Of a DNA stretch of 64,000 nt, positions 41,014-64,000 are shown in pieces. The DNA comes from Nitrospirales bacterium (GTDB lineage: Bacteria; Nitrospirota; Nitrospiria; Nitrospirales; UBA8639): contig JAJDBP010000035.1 of NCBI GenBank assembly GCA_029261295.1, positions 1-64,000 of the forward strand, in the 5' to 3' direction. Below the pieces are notes generated by a model. That model made no database searches. It was given only the letters and a program-made list of their open reading frames with translations, and was not told the origin of the DNA. The translations under genes and the position numbers were made by a program. Within the stretch, counting starts at the first letter, position 1, and every line of letters begins with the position of its first letter.

Positions 41014-41736
41014 TTAAATCAAGGAATGATCAGGCATGTGTTGAAGCAATGTCGGCCAGAGGTCATGTAAAAATCCCACTCCTTGATGGAAGGCCTCTTC
41101 CACATTTCCGTCGTTGACAGGAATAGATATACGAACAAGAGAGCCATCAGTCCTATTTTTCGTCATGGCGTCCCATACGAGGTATATCTTCGCCCAATAT
41201 TCACTGGCAATGATACGTCCCCGATCATGGTACCAATATAAAATTACCTGTTTTTCAACACCCTTCTGAATCAGCACATTATTCACTGTAATTTTTGCTC
41301 CATCGGGCATAGTCAGGGTACTATAGTCAGATGTCATAAATTGCCAACCCGCTCCAGGCAAACAGTTTTTTGGGGAATGATAGGTAGCCCCAGTCCGTTG
41401 GCTCTGGTAAAAACCCACGTAAAGCCAAACCGGTAGATAAGATTCCATTCGAGCCAATTGTGTCTTGGAGCCCTCTCCCTCAGAAACTGCTTTTTCCTCT
41501 CCGCCTTGTGCAATAACTGGTGCATACACACGCATCATATAATCACTCAGCTTGAGGACATCCAAAACCTCGTCCTCTATACCTAGCTCCCTCCCCTTCC
41601 AGTCTCCTGCAAGATCCAAGGGAAACTGCGAAAAAGCTTTATTGCTAATAAGCAGTTCGTTTGTTGAAAATGATTTGATGAGCCCAAAAGTCACCAAAAT
41701 CAGGAGTAAAGCAACTCCAAAAGGCCATTTTTTCAT
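41014..41736 (-). CDS. epsI: Exosortase-associated EpsI family protein
   Basis: The protein has 240 residues with an N-terminal membrane anchor (WPFGVALLLILVTFGLI). The core LDLAGDWKGRELGIEDEVLDVLKLSDYMMR, VGFYQSQRTGATYHSPKNCLPGAGW, and VILYWYHDRGRI is typical of the EpsI/DUF3485 family that accompanies exosortases in exopolysaccharide loci. In some bacteria the two are fused; here they are separate, 42 bases apart. Its precise role is unknown, but it is required for EPS in Methylobacillus (established for that organism). Confidence 0.9.
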   Translation of the reverse strand: MKKWPFGVALLLILVTFGLIKSFSTNELLISNKAFSQFPLDLAGDWKGRELGIEDEVLDVLKLSDYMMRVYAPVIAQGGEEKAVSEGEGSKTQLARMESYLPVWLYVGFYQSQRTGATYHSPKNCLPGAGWQFMTSDYSTLTMPDGAKITVNNVLIQKGVEKQVILYWYHDRGRIIASEYWAKIYLVWDAMTKNRTDGSLVRISIPVNDGNVEEAFHQGVGFLHDLWPTLLQHMPDHSLI

Positions 41737-41778: not shown

Positions 41779-42648
41779 TTAAGATGCTGGAGAAGGCCGC
41801 CCAATTTTCCCCAACACTATCCCACAGACAAATAGCAAAATAAACGCCACAACAAAGACGAGCCATCCTTCAAAAGTGTGGTAAAAACCCTCCGCTGCTT
41901 CGTCCCCAAAATAATGAGCTAAAATACCAGTCCCACTCACACGAGCTGCATTCGCAATAATGGCAATGGGAATTGAAAGGCCGACCAACATCCAACGCTT
42001 CCAAAGGACATTTTGCGAAAAATATCCATACACTGTTCCTAGAGCCAATAAGGACAGTAAGGACCGAAGACCACTACAAGCCTCAGCAACCTCTAAAGTT
42101 GTTGAAGCAAGCATAATAAGATTGCCCTCTCGAAGAACCGGAATACCCAAGGAAAACAAACAAAATGTGGCTGTTTGTGCCGCAAATAATTGCAAGGGAA
42201 ACGCAATAGTATTCACGATAATCGCAGGTAATGGGATCATAAAAATCAAAAACGCAATCGGAAGACTCAACAGCCATAAGTATTTCCATCCTAGAATCAA
42301 CAAAACGAGGCCAGATATCACAACAATTAATGACATCCGTTGCACATAAAGCTCTGCACCAATTAGACCAACCACAAGGGAAAATAATCCAAGTGATAGA
42401 AGCCCAATCCCCCAAATACTTGGAATTGGCAACTCCTCACTTAAGTCATTCCAGCGTTCCCAAATAAAAAATACGGAAAGAAATGGCACCAAAAAACCGT
42501 GAGAATAATCTGGGTTATTATTCCAATCGCTACCTAAACCCCATAAAACCTCTTGATAGAGGAATATGACTAAACCCGCTAGCAAAACGGTTCCCCCGAT
42601 TACCCAGGTCTCATTCAGAGGGTTTTTTGGAATAATTTTATTGTCCAT
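41779..42648 (-). CDS. xrtA: Exosortase (transpeptidase-type sorting enzyme)
   Basis: Exosortases are polytopic inner-membrane cysteine enzymes that cleave C-terminal PEP-CTERM signals and help to move proteins or link them to the surface. The 289-residue protein has about eight membrane segments and the catalytic triad Cys191 (EVAEACSGLRSLL), Arg236 (NAARVSGTG) and His257 (GFYHTFEGW). DYSHGFLVPFLSVFFIWERW is the usual N-terminal signature. The start ATG 42648 has a weak ribosome site. The XrtA subtype is inferred from PrsK/PrsR and EpsI; no PEP-CTERM substrate was found in the window. Confidence 0.93.
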   Translation of the reverse strand: MDNKIIPKNPLNETWVIGGTVLLAGLVIFLYQEVLWGLGSDWNNNPDYSHGFLVPFLSVFFIWERWNDLSEELPIPSIWGIGLLSLGLFSLVVGLIGAELYVQRMSLIVVISGLVLLILGWKYLWLLSLPIAFLIFMIPLPAIIVNTIAFPLQLFAAQTATFCLFSLGIPVLREGNLIMLASTTLEVAEACSGLRSLLSLLALGTVYGYFSQNVLWKRWMLVGLSIPIAIIANAARVSGTGILAHYFGDEAAEGFYHTFEGWLVFVVAFILLFVCGIVLGKIGRPSPAS

Positions 42649-57080: not shown

Positions 57081-59543
57081 TTATTGTGTTACCTGCAAAT
57101 TCTTGGGTGGAGCTGGTGGAAATTGGTCACTTGAAACTTGAGGATCCGCTATCTTTGCGCGAGAAATTATGAGGTCATCATACCAAGTAACCCCTGGAAG
57201 ATGATTCTGCTCCACCCCTTTTGAGGTATGGTAGGGAAGCAGCCAAATTTTTCCATATTTCACATTGGCATCTGCGTAACATGCCGTATCCCCGGGAGGA
57301 CAATTCACCAAGTCATATTGTGTCTTTTCCATCACCTTAACTGATGGTTGTCCCTCAGACCCTACCCACAATTCCACCGTACTATCTTGATGATAATTCT
57401 GGTCATTTCTATACCACGTTCCTATATGAACATGAACTTGAAATGTCATCCATTCGTTGGGCTTATACCCTACACACGGTCCATAAGGGGGAACAAACCG
57501 TTTATTCCACGGTTGCTCCGTATTAGACCACTTTAAGGTCCAATTGCATCCGGTAACATCTCCAGACTGCAAAGCCCAATCACTCCCAATTGGTTGTAGG
57601 GGAATCTCCAAGCCTTGATACTGGCCATCTTTATGCCCACAGCTATGGTACATCTGAGGAAATCCTTGTTGACTAGAATTTTGCACAACGAGTTCCATAG
57701 ACGTACAGGAACTTGTTATTTTCCCAGGGGAATCGCCCTCTCCAATAATGACCTGCTTCCAGCCACCAGCAATATTTTGAGCAGATGCTGGATCCATATA
57801 GTAAAGCGTATCAATAAATTCTGGCGAAAAACGTTGGCGCCATTGAATGTAAAAATCTTCTCCTTCTCCAAATTTCACTGAGTTATCATCCATAAAATTC
57901 AGCCAAAATAACCCGGAGGTATTTGCTGGACTATTTGAAGGAATATCAAATTTTAATGAGCCAGCTCCAGAAGACTTGACTACAGTATCAATCGTACCAA
58001 GCTTCACCCCATTGGTGAAATTTGGTGCCCACACATGTGGATCGGTTTCAGATTGAGAATCAAAGCTGAAACAGCGCACAACATTAAGATTACTGCATCG
58101 AGCGAGAAAATCAGATCCAGTTGTACTACCACCTTGGACTTCAATTGTGGCTTGAGAAGAAAGAGGCGACTTATTCCCTGCCGCATCAAAAGCTAAAACA
58201 GAAAATTGATAAAAACCAGGTCCAGGGATCGTACTATCAAAAAATGAATTCCCACCTGTTGAATTAATTTCAACACCATTTCGGAAAATAGTATATCCAG
58301 CGACCAATCGATCATCTGTGGAAGGTTGCCACTGAAGATAAATTTCTGATGGAGAAGTCGCATTCCCCTGCACAACAGAAGGAACCGTCGGCGGGGCCGT
58401 ATCTGGGATTAAAGGAGTTCCAGAACCTTGCTTATGTTTATAGAGAAACACTTTCGTTTGATCAAAGTAATATTTCAAATACATAACCACACCATAATTG
58501 CTGATCGGAGCACCAATCACATCGAACGCCCCAGGACCAAAGCTTGTGAGTAGGGGTTGGGAGTCTAATAACGTCCAAGTATCATTAGCTACATCATATT
58601 CATAGAAACCATTGTTAGAAGCATCAGATTGAAGTACAAGAAAGTTGCCACTGGGGTCTGGGGTAAAAACTGTTGAACCCACTCTGATGTTGAAAGGCGC
58701 ATTATTCAATTGCACAATAGATCCGTTAGCATCAACTTTATATAATGACCTTTTATCGTTGGATCCCCCACCAAAAATCACGACTTTATGCGTGGAGCTA
58801 TATCCAGAGACATGACTATGCGGGCCAAGATCTAAAGTGGTGGATAAGGTACTCCATTGATTCGTGGAGGGGTTGTAAAAGAAAAGGGAAGCCGGAGAGA
58901 ATCGTGCATCAGCAAACAACAACCCTCCCATTTCAGGAAAATATTGCACCATTCCAGCAACCTGAAATCCACCTTGTGGAGGAATTGGCAAATTCTCCCA
59001 GGTGTTTCCCACCACATTATATTTGAAGATTTTCCCAAAATTATATTGTCGATAATAATAGCTTCCGGACGCAGGATCCATTGTACTATGATCATAGCCA
59101 TGAGAAATACAGGCTGTGGAGGAAGTTTGTGGATCCTCTGCCATACAGGATTCTGGAAGGGGGCCCTCACGCCACGTATTGGTTATCGCGCTATATATCA
59201 CAAATTTTCCTGGATTATAATGGGGCGAACCGACAAAAAAGAATTGTTCTGTATTAGGATCCCAAGCAGCCTTATGAGACCACTGGGTCACAGCCTTTCC
59301 TGCTAAAACTGTTTCAAAAAAATGCCCTTGATTCATCCCCAAAGTTGGCAATTCTGCCCAAGTGCCAGGAGCCATTTGATTTGCTAAATCCCCTAAAACG
59401 GTAGCACTAGAGATTTGCGGTGATAGGGACATGACAAAAATAATGACCATAACTTTTACCCAAGGACGCCGACATTTCCTTGTAGGAACAAAAGACTGCA
59501 TATTCCCTATTTTTTGATAATAATTAAATAAATTACCTTCCAT
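57081..59543 (-). CDS. Large exported protein: beta-propeller, FN3 and lectin/lyase-like domain; c-di-GMP riboswitch leader
   Basis: The protein has 820 residues from ATG 59543, just after AAGGAGG; an in-frame TTG at 59558 is rejected for this reason. The hydrophobic part of the signal peptide is at about 29-41, with likely cleavage after SSA (47). Residues about 50-375 show Kelch-like repeats (FVIYSAITNTWREGPLP, IFKYNVVGNTWENLPIP, LFFYNPSTNQWSTLS, FYEYDVANDTWTLLD), i.e. a beta-propeller. About 385-475 is a fibronectin type III domain. About 480-800 is a cysteine-containing beta-rich domain (FYIQWRQRFSPEF, VHVHIGTWYRNDQ, TWYDDLIIS) that resembles a jelly-roll lectin or polysaccharide-lyase fold. 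The end PPAPPKNLQVTQ looks like the first strand of another FN3. The leader of about 340 bases contains a c-di-GMP-I riboswitch. Confidence 0.75.
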   Translation of the reverse strand: MEGNLFNYYQKIGNMQSFVPTRKCRRPWVKVMVIIFVMSLSPQISSATVLGDLANQMAPGTWAELPTLGMNQGHFFETVLAGKAVTQWSHKAAWDPNTEQFFFVGSPHYNPGKFVIYSAITNTWREGPLPESCMAEDPQTSSTACISHGYDHSTMDPASGSYYYRQYNFGKIFKYNVVGNTWENLPIPPQGGFQVAGMVQYFPEMGGLLFADARFSPASLFFYNPSTNQWSTLSTTLDLGPHSHVSGYSSTHKVVIFGGGSNDKRSLYKVDANGSIVQLNNAPFNIRVGSTVFTPDPSGNFLVLQSDASNNGFYEYDVANDTWTLLDSQPLLTSFGPGAFDVIGAPISNYGVVMYLKYYFDQTKVFLYKHKQGSGTPLIPDTAPPTVPSVVQGNATSPSEIYLQWQPSTDDRLVAGYTIFRNGVEINSTGGNSFFDSTIPGPGFYQFSVLAFDAAGNKSPLSSQATIEVQGGSTTGSDFLARCSNLNVVRCFSFDSQSETDPHVWAPNFTNGVKLGTIDTVVKSSGAGSLKFDIPSNSPANTSGLFWLNFMDDNSVKFGEGEDFYIQWRQRFSPEFIDTLYYMDPASAQNIAGGWKQVIIGEGDSPGKITSSCTSMELVVQNSSQQGFPQMYHSCGHKDGQYQGLEIPLQPIGSDWALQSGDVTGCNWTLKWSNTEQPWNKRFVPPYGPCVGYKPNEWMTFQVHVHIGTWYRNDQNYHQDSTVELWVGSEGQPSVKVMEKTQYDLVNCPPGDTACYADANVKYGKIWLLPYHTSKGVEQNHLPGVTWYDDLIISRAKIADPQVSSDQFPPAPPKNLQVTQ

Positions 59544-59588
59544 CTTATCCTCCTTCAAAGGGATTTCCTCAAATCCTGTATGTTAGAT

Positions 59589-59870
59589 TTAAAATAATAT
59601 CAGATCCACTTTACTTCTAATTAAATAGAATAGCTTCAATAAGCAAAGTGCTAAGCCTCTTCTTTTAAAAGAGAAAGAATTCTTAAAATACGTTGTAAAT
59701 TGGGGGAGATAAAAAGAAAGCAACGACACTAACCGGGGGGAAGGCTTACATAATTTCAGTATATCAAAAGAAATACCTGGTGCAAATGCAAATCCTGTCT
59801 TTGGGCAATCAGAAAAGAACAGAATAGGAATGAAACGTTCCACTGCCTCTACATTTGTTAGGTATTTCAC
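59589..59870 (-). CDS. Possible small ORF directly behind the c-di-GMP riboswitch
   Basis: AAAGGA lies immediately after the riboswitch, followed 7 bases later by GTG 59870 (a TTG in the same frame is 6 bases before). The 93-codon frame is rich in Leu, Phe and Ser, with a hydrophobic patch (LLSFYLPQFTTYF) and basic C-terminal segments. It ends 45 bases before ATG 59543 of the exported protein. It may be a real small protein, an unspecific frame in a leader, or part of the riboswitch expression platform. Confidence 0.25.
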   Translation of the reverse strand: MKYLTNVEAVERFIPILFFSDCPKTGFAFAPGISFDILKLCKPSPRLVSLLSFYLPQFTTYFKNSFSFKRRGLALCLLKLFYLIRSKVDLILF

Positions 59871-59883
59871 GAACAAATCCTTT

Positions 59884-59975
59884 CCCTGGCAACCAGGCTA
59901 TCAGAACATTTTTGGTAGAAATGTCTGACCCTTGGCTTTGCGTCCCTACCTCACGGTAGGTTTGCTATTAACAAG
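59884..59975 (-). promoter_or_regulatory. Cyclic-di-GMP-I (GEMM-I) riboswitch
   Basis: Read on the minus strand, the order is TAGCAAACC, a 6-bp stem CCTACC/GGTAGG capped by a GTGA (GNRA) tetraloop, then GGGACGCAAAGCC with the conserved ligand-binding and receptor bases. A second long hairpin follows (TCAGACATTT pairing with AAATG and TCTGA), then TAGCCTGGTTGCC, whose TTGC can pair with the opening GCAA to close P1. These are the fixed features of the c-di-GMP class I aptamer (GEMM, RF01051). It lies about 340 bases upstream of the exported propeller/FN3 gene. The expression platform is not clear; no terminator-like stem is obvious before the gene. Confidence 0.92.
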
Positions 59976-60173
59976 AATGGACCGAGTAATTCCTCTTCTT
60001 TAGTCCTTCTGCTAAGACCTCCCTCAGACACTGGGGTAAAAATTTCGCATCTCATTCATATCGGCTAGACTTTTAATTTTCTTTAGTTCACCTATCGGGC
60101 AATAAATTATTTTAAACCTCAGAAATAGTTCAATTTTTCAAAAATTCTGTATATTACACTAAAATCTTCCCAT

Positions 60174-62138
60174 TTATTTAAGGATAACCGCGTCAATGTC
60201 CCTTTCAAAATACGCCCGCAACCAAACCTCCGTGTTGAGCAATGGCCAAATTTGATGGGGCTCCCCCTTCCCCGATAGAAAATTTATCACTCGAGCCCGA
60301 AGCTTGCCTGGATCAACAAACTGAGCTAGCTTTGGCTCTCCACTGGCCAAAAGGCCCTCAACAACTGAACGCAGTGGTCCGAGCAACCATGAAGAACTTG
60401 GACCAGAAAAAGGTATTTTTTGGGGGTCTCCACTAATAATAGATGGCAAGGTGTCAGTCATAGCTTTTCGAAGAACTATTTTCGTAAGACCATTTTGAAT
60501 CTTTAAATGATTTGGAAGACCAAATCCATACTCAATAAGTCGATAATCCATAAAAGGTAGACGCGCTTCTAATGAATATGCCATAGAAATGCGGTCTTCA
60601 AATTGCAGCCAGGCAGGAAGCATTTTATGGAAAAAATCTAACCGTAAATGTTGATCAAGTCCAGAATGGCATTTGCCTAAATTTGGGCGTAAGCTTGCAT
60701 GCTTTTCAAGAAGGTCCCCATGAATTAAATTTTCTAATGACCATGTATCGCCTTTCCCTAAAAGATGTTTTATGGATCGAAGAATTCTGTATCGTAGCGT
60801 ACTAAAAGCCAATTCCCAATTCAAACCATGCATTTGTTTCATGGCATGAAGTTCTCCCCAAGCCCTTGTCCATTGCAAGCGAACGAGGGCATCTATCACA
60901 ACTTCAGGACAATAGTCATAGGGATATCCAGCATAAATCTCGTCCGAACCATGCCCATTCAAGAGCACTTTGACCTGCTCAGCTTGCGCGCGTCGCATGA
61001 GAAGGGCATGAACCAAAGGGACAGAATTATACCAAGGCATTTCCATTGAATAGGCAACACCTTTAAGTAAAAATTGAACATCCAATTCTTCTAAGGGGAA
61101 AACGGTATGTTTCGTCAGAGGTAATTGCTGACAAAGGGCATCCACTTTGACCGTTTCATCTATTTTTTCACCTGGGAAGCCGGCAGTAAAAGAATGTAAG
61201 GATTCACCTGTAACAGCCAGAGTTCCCGAATCGGAAGACATAAAACCCGCAACAATGGAAATAACACTTGTTGAATCAAGTCCGCCGCTCAGCATTGTGC
61301 CAACTTTTACATCAGAGCGAAGACGAAGATGAACAGAATCATTTAAGAGAAATTTAAGTTGAGTCGCAGCTTCCTCCAAATTATTGGTAATCGGCCATGG
61401 CTCAAGTGGCAACGTCCAATAACGTGTACTTTGAAAAGAGCCATCAGGGAAAAAAGTCAAACAGGTTCCCGGATCAACAGCCCAGATATCTTCAAAAAAA
61501 CTGGCCCCATTGGTCGGGGCGGTCCGCCGGGCTAAATAGCCAACAACCGAATCAACATCGGGACGACGAACAACCAAGGGACATTGGAGGATGGCCTTAA
61601 TTTCCGATGCAAAAAGCACTGCACCGTTTATTCTATGGTAATAAAGCGGTTTGATTCCGAATCGATCTCGACAAGCAACCAACTTACGCTCTTGATTATC
61701 CCAAATCAAAAGAGCCCACATACCATTAAAGCGTGAAAAACATTCTTGCCCCCATTGCATGAAAGCCGCCAAGACAACTTCCGTATCTGTGCCGGTTCTA
61801 AAATTATGACCAAGGCTTTTCAACTGTTCTTTCAGCTCAAGATAGTTAAAGATTTCACCATTATAGATCATCCAAAATCGACCATCTGGGGAGACGAAAG
61901 GTTGTCGTCCAGCATCTGACAAATCAAGGATGCTCAATCGTCGGTGCCCCATTCCAACGCCTTTTTTACCTTTTGGCATTAAGGGGTTATCTCGCCATTC
62001 CAAACTATTCCCAGGGCCAACAAAACAAAAACCAAAGTTATCTGGGCCACGATGCTCCAGCGCATGGGTCATTTTCGCAAGGAGTTTCGGATCTAAGACT
62101 TGTCCTGAGTAATTGTAAATTGCCGCGATACCACACAT
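60174..62138 (-). CDS. asnB: Asparagine synthase (glutamine-hydrolysing)-type amidotransferase
   Basis: The protein has 654 residues. Cys2 in MCGIAAIY is the glutaminase nucleophile; HRGPDNFGF, GHRRLSILDLSDAGRQP and NGEIFNY follow. The synthase domain has the PP-loop MLSGGLDSTSVIS. HGSDEIYAGYPYDY and SLEARLPFMDYRLIEYG are also typical. It could make asparagine, but AsnB-like enzymes are frequent in exosortase/exopolysaccharide loci and may amidate a sugar acid. The context supports the second possibility, but the sequence does not decide. It has no close upstream partner. Confidence 0.92.
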   Translation of the reverse strand: MCGIAAIYNYSGQVLDPKLLAKMTHALEHRGPDNFGFCFVGPGNSLEWRDNPLMPKGKKGVGMGHRRLSILDLSDAGRQPFVSPDGRFWMIYNGEIFNYLELKEQLKSLGHNFRTGTDTEVVLAAFMQWGQECFSRFNGMWALLIWDNQERKLVACRDRFGIKPLYYHRINGAVLFASEIKAILQCPLVVRRPDVDSVVGYLARRTAPTNGASFFEDIWAVDPGTCLTFFPDGSFQSTRYWTLPLEPWPITNNLEEAATQLKFLLNDSVHLRLRSDVKVGTMLSGGLDSTSVISIVAGFMSSDSGTLAVTGESLHSFTAGFPGEKIDETVKVDALCQQLPLTKHTVFPLEELDVQFLLKGVAYSMEMPWYNSVPLVHALLMRRAQAEQVKVLLNGHGSDEIYAGYPYDYCPEVVIDALVRLQWTRAWGELHAMKQMHGLNWELAFSTLRYRILRSIKHLLGKGDTWSLENLIHGDLLEKHASLRPNLGKCHSGLDQHLRLDFFHKMLPAWLQFEDRISMAYSLEARLPFMDYRLIEYGFGLPNHLKIQNGLTKIVLRKAMTDTLPSIISGDPQKIPFSGPSSSWLLGPLRSVVEGLLASGEPKLAQFVDPGKLRARVINFLSGKGEPHQIWPLLNTEVWLRAYFERDIDAVILK

Positions 62139-63521: not shown

Positions 63522-64000
63522 TTAGATATTAATAAATGTAATCGTTTTTTTTAAATTTTCACGTGCAGGCTTCAGCCGTGATTCTAAGAAATTTCCAAAA
63601 TCTTCAGTATAGTCCACCAACCAAGACTTATGGTTCCCCGAAAGTTGATGTACACTTACTCCTTTCGTTGAAAAATCCCCCCACCCCATAGCTAAATCGA
63701 CATCCCATTCATGCCTATCCTCAATCGTTCGGGCTAGCACAATTTCCCCTTCAAATTTGCTTGTTGGCGCATAATTATCCATGGCCCGAAAAATGCGGTA
63801 TTCAATATATTCATGCTTCACAATTTCTATGAAGGTTCGAATATTCAAATCTGACATCCGCGCACGACTCAATAAAGCCTTCAGTTGGTTCAAAACTCTA
63901 AATGGGGCTGAACGACCAAAAACAGCTCCATTTGCATAATGTGGCGCTGGCGTAATCCATACAATGAGTTTAGCCACAGTTTCACCACGTCGCTGGAGCT
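63522..64000 (-). CDS. C-terminal part of a thioesterase (alpha/beta hydrolase) domain, cut by the right edge
   Basis: The frame stays open to the right edge without a stop: LQRRGETVAKLIVWITPAPH at the left end of the protein is the strand-helix region of a type I thioesterase. Then come YRIFRAMDNYAPTSKFEGEIVLARTIEDR, LAMGWGDFSTKGVSVHQLSGNHKSWL and a C-terminal helix. GWGDF...GVSVHQLSGNH is the usual end of thioesterase domains from NRPS or PKS modules, with the catalytic His in GNH. The catalytic Ser and any upstream modules are off the window. A GTG at 63977 is an in-frame codon, not a likely start. Confidence 0.75.
   Translation of the reverse strand, partial: LQRRGETVAKLIVWITPAPHYANGAVFGRSAPFRVLNQLKALLSRARMSDLNIRTFIEIVKHEYIEYRIFRAMDNYAPTSKFEGEIVLARTIEDRHEWDVDLAMGWGDFSTKGVSVHQLSGNHKSWLVDYTEDFGNFLESRLKPARENLKKTITFINI

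Follow-up and report, generated by a model that had tools for sequence, protein, structure and literature searches.

A GEMM-I aptamer in the leader of an exported-protein gene

Which cyclic dinucleotide is read by the GEMM-I element at 59884-59975, and does the element control the gene behind it? We searched the whole stretch of DNA analysed here (64 kb, hereafter the window) against Rfam with cmscan, and its sole match was a complete GEMM-I aptamer of the c-di-GMP clan on the minus strand (59975-59884), the strand to which all coordinates of the aptamer, its leader and its target refer. The aptamer matched RF03167 (c-di-GMP-I-GGC) over its full length (model positions 1-80) with 63.1 bits and an E-value of 1.6e-12, above the gathering score of 59; a single lower-scoring overlapping match of the same clan was set aside. 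The initial annotation had proposed a minus-strand GEMM-I element with exactly this position and orientation and had named an RF01051 (c-di-GMP-I) search as a check. In a whole-genome search that model gave 68.3 bits on the aptamer (gathering score, 35), with both stems present. Neither model returned a match in 14 control genomes.

All of the motifs that had been listed for the element were indeed found in the sequence. GCAAACC is followed by the P2 hairpin CCTACC-GTGA-GGTAGG (59945-59960 in the model alignment and fold), whose GTGA loop is a GNRA tetraloop, and then by GGGACGCAAAGCC, the P3 hairpin and GGTTGCC. In the fold, P1 is extendable to ~11 pairs with one mismatch by pairing of GGTCCATTCTTG (5' arm, 59972-59983) with CAGGGAAAGGATT (3' arm, 59876-59888), the latter including a Shine-Dalgarno-like AAAGGA. 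Two conserved pocket bases are retained in the model alignment, namely A47 (59939; numbering by our own count against Vc2), the ligand-stacking base, and C92 (59889), which would make the Watson-Crick contact to a ligand G, a role taken from its equivalent C75 (PMC6274999). The third pocket base, position 20, is A rather than G. The window element taken alone is an ordinary, well-supported riboswitch of a known class.

The aptamer lies in the 5' leader of the gene 57081-59543, on the same strand and with its end 340 nt upstream of the ATG (59543); the gene has an AAGGAGG Shine-Dalgarno sequence at 59549-59555. The 820-aa product comprises an N-terminal hydrophobic segment, a kelch-repeat propeller (~aa 60-375, 58419-59366; Pfam PF13964, E 4.5e-08, and related families), a chitinase A1-like FN3 domain (~aa 384-470, 58134-58394; phmmer against PDB 1k85, E 1.8e-06, and an NCBIfam CbhB FN3 stretch) and a conserved C-terminal domain (aa 477-806, 57126-58115). 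Relatives of the target were not recovered by sequence search of the named genome collection; a further genome search found them, and the C-terminal domain shares 45-49% identity over its length with three relatives in the order. This domain had no match in Pfam, and its profile had none in PDB; an AlphaFold prediction from the single sequence reached a pLDDT of 33. One homologue of the domain showed a sub-threshold similarity to PF14099 (Polysacc_lyase, E 0.021), so that the domain is possibly a polysaccharide-lyase-like jelly roll. The earlier description of the product as carbohydrate-related is thus plausible.

The exosortase system noted in the same region is real and comprises an exosortase (41779-42648), an EpsI-type protein (41014-41736), PrsK and PrsR. 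However, the target carries no PEP-CTERM tail, its C-terminus being PPAPPKNLQVTQ, and we therefore regard the system as a neighbour and not as a demonstrated partner; the suggested link comes down to proximity. Condensation/adenylation-type NRPS-like open reading frames start at the end of the window (63522-63998; L020:13523-18943), upstream of an asparagine-synthase-like gene (60174-62138) and the exosortase region.

GEMM-I elements of the genome and the genus

The genome holds seven GEMM-I elements, each with a gene behind it, and the 21 genomes of the genus hold 89. By sequence similarity and motif reading (the names are not curated annotation), the seven downstream genes encode a TadG-like protein, an Flp pilin, an FN3/CBM exported protein, an S8-peptidase-like exported protein, a FliA-type sigma factor, another exported protein and the window target. 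Across the genus, the 89 targets were FN3 exported proteins (37), FliA-type sigma factors (20), Flp pilins (15), single-domain response regulators (7), TadG-like proteins (2) and an S8 peptidase (1), and 7 had no family assigned. The window element is counted among the last seven, as its FN3 domain sits close to the distal limit of the examined stretch and the seeds did not pick it up.

These counts bear on the proposal that a riboswitch in this setting with this target is new. No target is more frequent behind the GEMM-I elements of the genus than FN3 exported proteins (37 of 89), and a precedent exists in Geobacter sulfurreducens, in which a GEMM riboswitch lies upstream of the FNIII surface protein KN400_1971 (PMC13194489); the claim to novelty thus has to be given up. 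Our literature search for Nitrospira together with c-di-GMP riboswitches found no paper on such a system.

Two further features of these elements were observed. GEMM-I elements precede the FliA-type sigma factor at G000:C22:109900-109990 (L007, L013) and at equivalent loci in 20 of the 21 genus genomes; in the present genome, aptamer and gene are separated by a strong intrinsic terminator (CGCCCATTCCTCAGGAGTTGGGCG followed by nine T). Single-domain response regulators are preceded by GEMM-I elements in G001, G005, G011, G012, G013, G014 and G020 (for example, L088, L092, L095 and L102), and position 20 of these elements is G, A or C, varying by genome.

The aptamer-target link in related genomes

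The assignment of the gene 57081-59543 as the target is backed by synteny in a sister genus. In three genomes of that genus, G261 (locus L318), G225 (L319) and G157 (L320), a GEMM-I aptamer stands before a same-strand run in which an FN3 gene comes first and a homologue of the kelch target second, the latter beginning ~50-260 nt beyond the FN3 gene. The homologue of the FN3 partner in the present genome is on contig C33 (43% identity over 420 aa), behind a GEMM-I element of its own. The two halves of the sister-genus run are thus at separate loci here, each behind its own aptamer. In both genera each half lies behind a GEMM-I aptamer, which supports functional control of the target. Within the genus, the pairing of aptamer and target found in the window was seen in this genome only. 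Of the three order relatives that share the C-terminal domain, G147 has a single GEMM-I element, which is on another contig, and G214 and G255 have none.

An A at a ligand-selectivity position

The base directly 5' of GCAAACC was overlooked in the initial annotation. When the element is aligned to the model and to the genome's six other elements, this base falls at position 20 (Vc2 numbering; 59966), a ligand-selectivity position (PMC9262584) that contacts the ligand. It is G in all six of the other elements and A in the window element. An A at this position is the hallmark of GEMM-Ib and is found at the equivalent site of the cGAMP riboswitch 4YAZ. The Cd1 aptamer of Clostridioides difficile is reported to have still bound c-di-GMP after mutation of the equivalent base; the same paper describes the position as a selectivity factor and not as a hard filter, and point changes at the lower P2 pair are also reported to alter selectivity (PMC9262584). 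This pair is G21-C46 in the window element and C15-G40 in 4YAZ.

A20 proved to be widespread. Counting the exact A20 pattern only, we found at least 120 such stretches in the named genome collection, and those listed span Clostridia, Pseudoalteromonas, Chloroflexi, Nitrospirota and others, which indicates that A20 is a common variation. Among the 89 elements of the genus, 10 are clearly A20, one is ambiguous and one is C20. A20 and G20 elements head the same gene families, with 31 G and 6 A before FN3 exported proteins and 3 G, 3 A and 1 C before response regulators. One pair of aptamers, G001:1139946 (A20) and G002:3740368 (G20), differs at position 20 and nowhere else, and both precede FN3 genes. 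At G001:C1:1139946 and 1143022 (L059, L033), two near-identical FN3 genes ~3 kb apart have an aptamer each, A20 in one case and G20 in the other; behind the A20 copy the gene ends early, at 179 codons.

We also read the cyclases. Hypr enzymes, which make cGAMP, have Ser at a GGDEF position that is Asp in the c-di-GMP type (PMC6456294, PMC8835794). Asp occupies this position in 7 of the 7 GGDEF domains of the genome, none of which is of the Hypr type, and in 52 of the 55 GGDEF loci read across the genus (own genome included; the other three were not parsed). A SMODS nucleotidyltransferase (DncV-like) was sought in the genome and not found.

Taken together, the Asp-type GGDEF domains, the lack of a SMODS match, the G-C lower P2 pair, the common occurrence of A20 and the sharing of gene families by A20 and G20 elements make c-di-GMP the likeliest ligand of the window aptamer. 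The substitution of G20 by A probably lowers affinity or selectivity while leaving the identity of the signal unchanged, and on sequence grounds the best reading of the element is a c-di-GMP riboswitch, perhaps a weaker or less selective one. The proposal of a c-di-GMP-class riboswitch before the kelch/FN3 gene accordingly stands on the covariance models and the sister-genus synteny, with its ligand restated as the likeliest one and the pocket change at A20 added.

The leader and its possible expression platform

The leader between aptamer and gene (59544-59883, 340 nt) is long; the aptamer-gene distance at the other elements of the genome is ~20-105 nt. A search for intrinsic terminators in it found none, whereas the pilin and sigma-factor elements of the genome have hairpin and T-run terminators. 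When the aptamer fold was forced in the modelled leader, the cost was 2.5 kcal/mol and the predicted openness of AAGGAGG was 0.40 with and without forcing. The same modelling at seven other loci gave little or no switch, except for the TadG-like gene (0.44 to 0.20). Four promoter-like matches were found in the region, a number within chance (2.4 +/- 1.7 expected).

Proposed mechanism and alternatives

We consider it likely that the c-di-GMP riboswitch aptamer in the 5' leader controls the kelch/FN3 exported-protein gene, with the change from G20 to A not altering the signal. The genome is predicted to make no cyclic dinucleotide of the GGDEF/DncV kind other than c-di-GMP. This ligand would bind the three-way junction and stabilise the extendable P1, which may in turn alter transcription or translation of the leader and thereby the amount of surface protein. 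The target would be co-controlled with the Flp pilin, the TadG-like protein, the FN3/CBM protein, the S8 peptidase, the FliA-type sigma factor and one more exported protein. Since most targets are surface proteins or pili, activation at high c-di-GMP is slightly favoured; the lean is weak because a sigma factor is among the GEMM-I genes. Counting against the proposed mechanism are the lack of a terminator, the unchanged modelled openness of the Shine-Dalgarno sequence, the long leader and the occurrence of the pairing in one genus member only.

The pocket change itself suggests a GEMM-Ib riboswitch for 3',3'-cGAMP, or for both dinucleotides, supplied with cGAMP by an unrecognised cyclase. Position 20 is a selectivity position, the G20A change in a GEMM-I riboswitch permits cGAMP binding, and A20, read with its preceding bases as AAUA, matches the A11-A12-U13-A14 contact run of 4YAZ. 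However, the genome offers neither a Hypr-type GGDEF domain nor a SMODS cyclase, the lower P2 pair is not that of 4YAZ, and A20 recurs in many phyla and alternates with G20 at the same gene families, so that we hold this reading to be unlikely. Its extension to the genus, in which the A20 elements would form a second group of GEMM-I receptors for 3',3'-cGAMP or both dinucleotides served by an unrecognised cyclase, is also rather improbable; if true, neighbouring copies of one gene family would be split between two signals.

The leader and the history of the locus allow two other readings. Most of the stretch from aptamer to gene is taken up by a 95-codon open frame (59589-59876), and the aptamer might control this short frame (starting at GTG 59870 or TTG 59876 and running to 59589), the main gene then being affected indirectly at most. 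AAAGGA precedes the GTG by 7 nt and lies within the extended P1, in whose 3' arm it would serve as a Shine-Dalgarno sequence, and shuffles of such a leader contain an open frame of 96 codons or more with a chance of ~0.7%. However, the codon usage of the frame scores -0.12 bits per codon, where the genes have a median of +0.18 and a 5th percentile of 0.00, and the frame has no Pfam match. The frame is unlikely to be a gene, its codon usage not being gene-like, and control through it is very unlikely. The element might instead be a decaying copy, whose altered pocket and long leader reflect control lost after the gene left its operon. The sister-genus order is not retained here, position 20 is altered and no platform was found; yet all helices are intact, the full model scores 63 bits, P1 has extra pairs, and A20 recurs in otherwise intact-looking elements, which leaves decay highly improbable. 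The preferred reading remains control of the kelch/FN3 gene by c-di-GMP.

Significance and comparison with known systems

With these elements, Nitrospirota joins the lineages with a visible c-di-GMP riboswitch regulon, here of pili, FN3 surface proteins, a FliA-type sigma factor and response regulators. The natural G20/A20 pairs, one of them differing at position 20 alone, could show whether this base varies by drift, tunes affinity or alters which ligand is bound.

The window element shares with RF01051 and RF03167 the whole P1-P2-P3 architecture, the GNRA loop, A47 and C92, and differs from both in having A at position 20; the consensus of RF03167, the GGC model, has G at position 47, where the window element has A. 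With the GEMM-Ib 3',3'-cGAMP riboswitch of Geobacter (Gm0970/4YAZ) it has in common A20 after AAU and a place upstream of surface-related genes. In contrast to that system, its lower P2 pair is G-C where that of 4YAZ is C-G, neither a Hypr GGDEF domain nor a SMODS cyclase was found in its genome, and its target is neither a cytochrome nor a pilus operon. The sister-genus loci belong to the same class, have FN3 exported targets and carry the same kelch-protein family in the run; they differ from the window locus in having G20 and in that an FN3 gene separates the kelch gene from the aptamer. The KN400_1971 riboswitch of Geobacter is likewise of the GEMM-I class and likewise precedes the gene of a surface protein with an FN3 domain, whereas the present element is in another phylum and its target also has a kelch propeller and an additional domain at the C-terminus.
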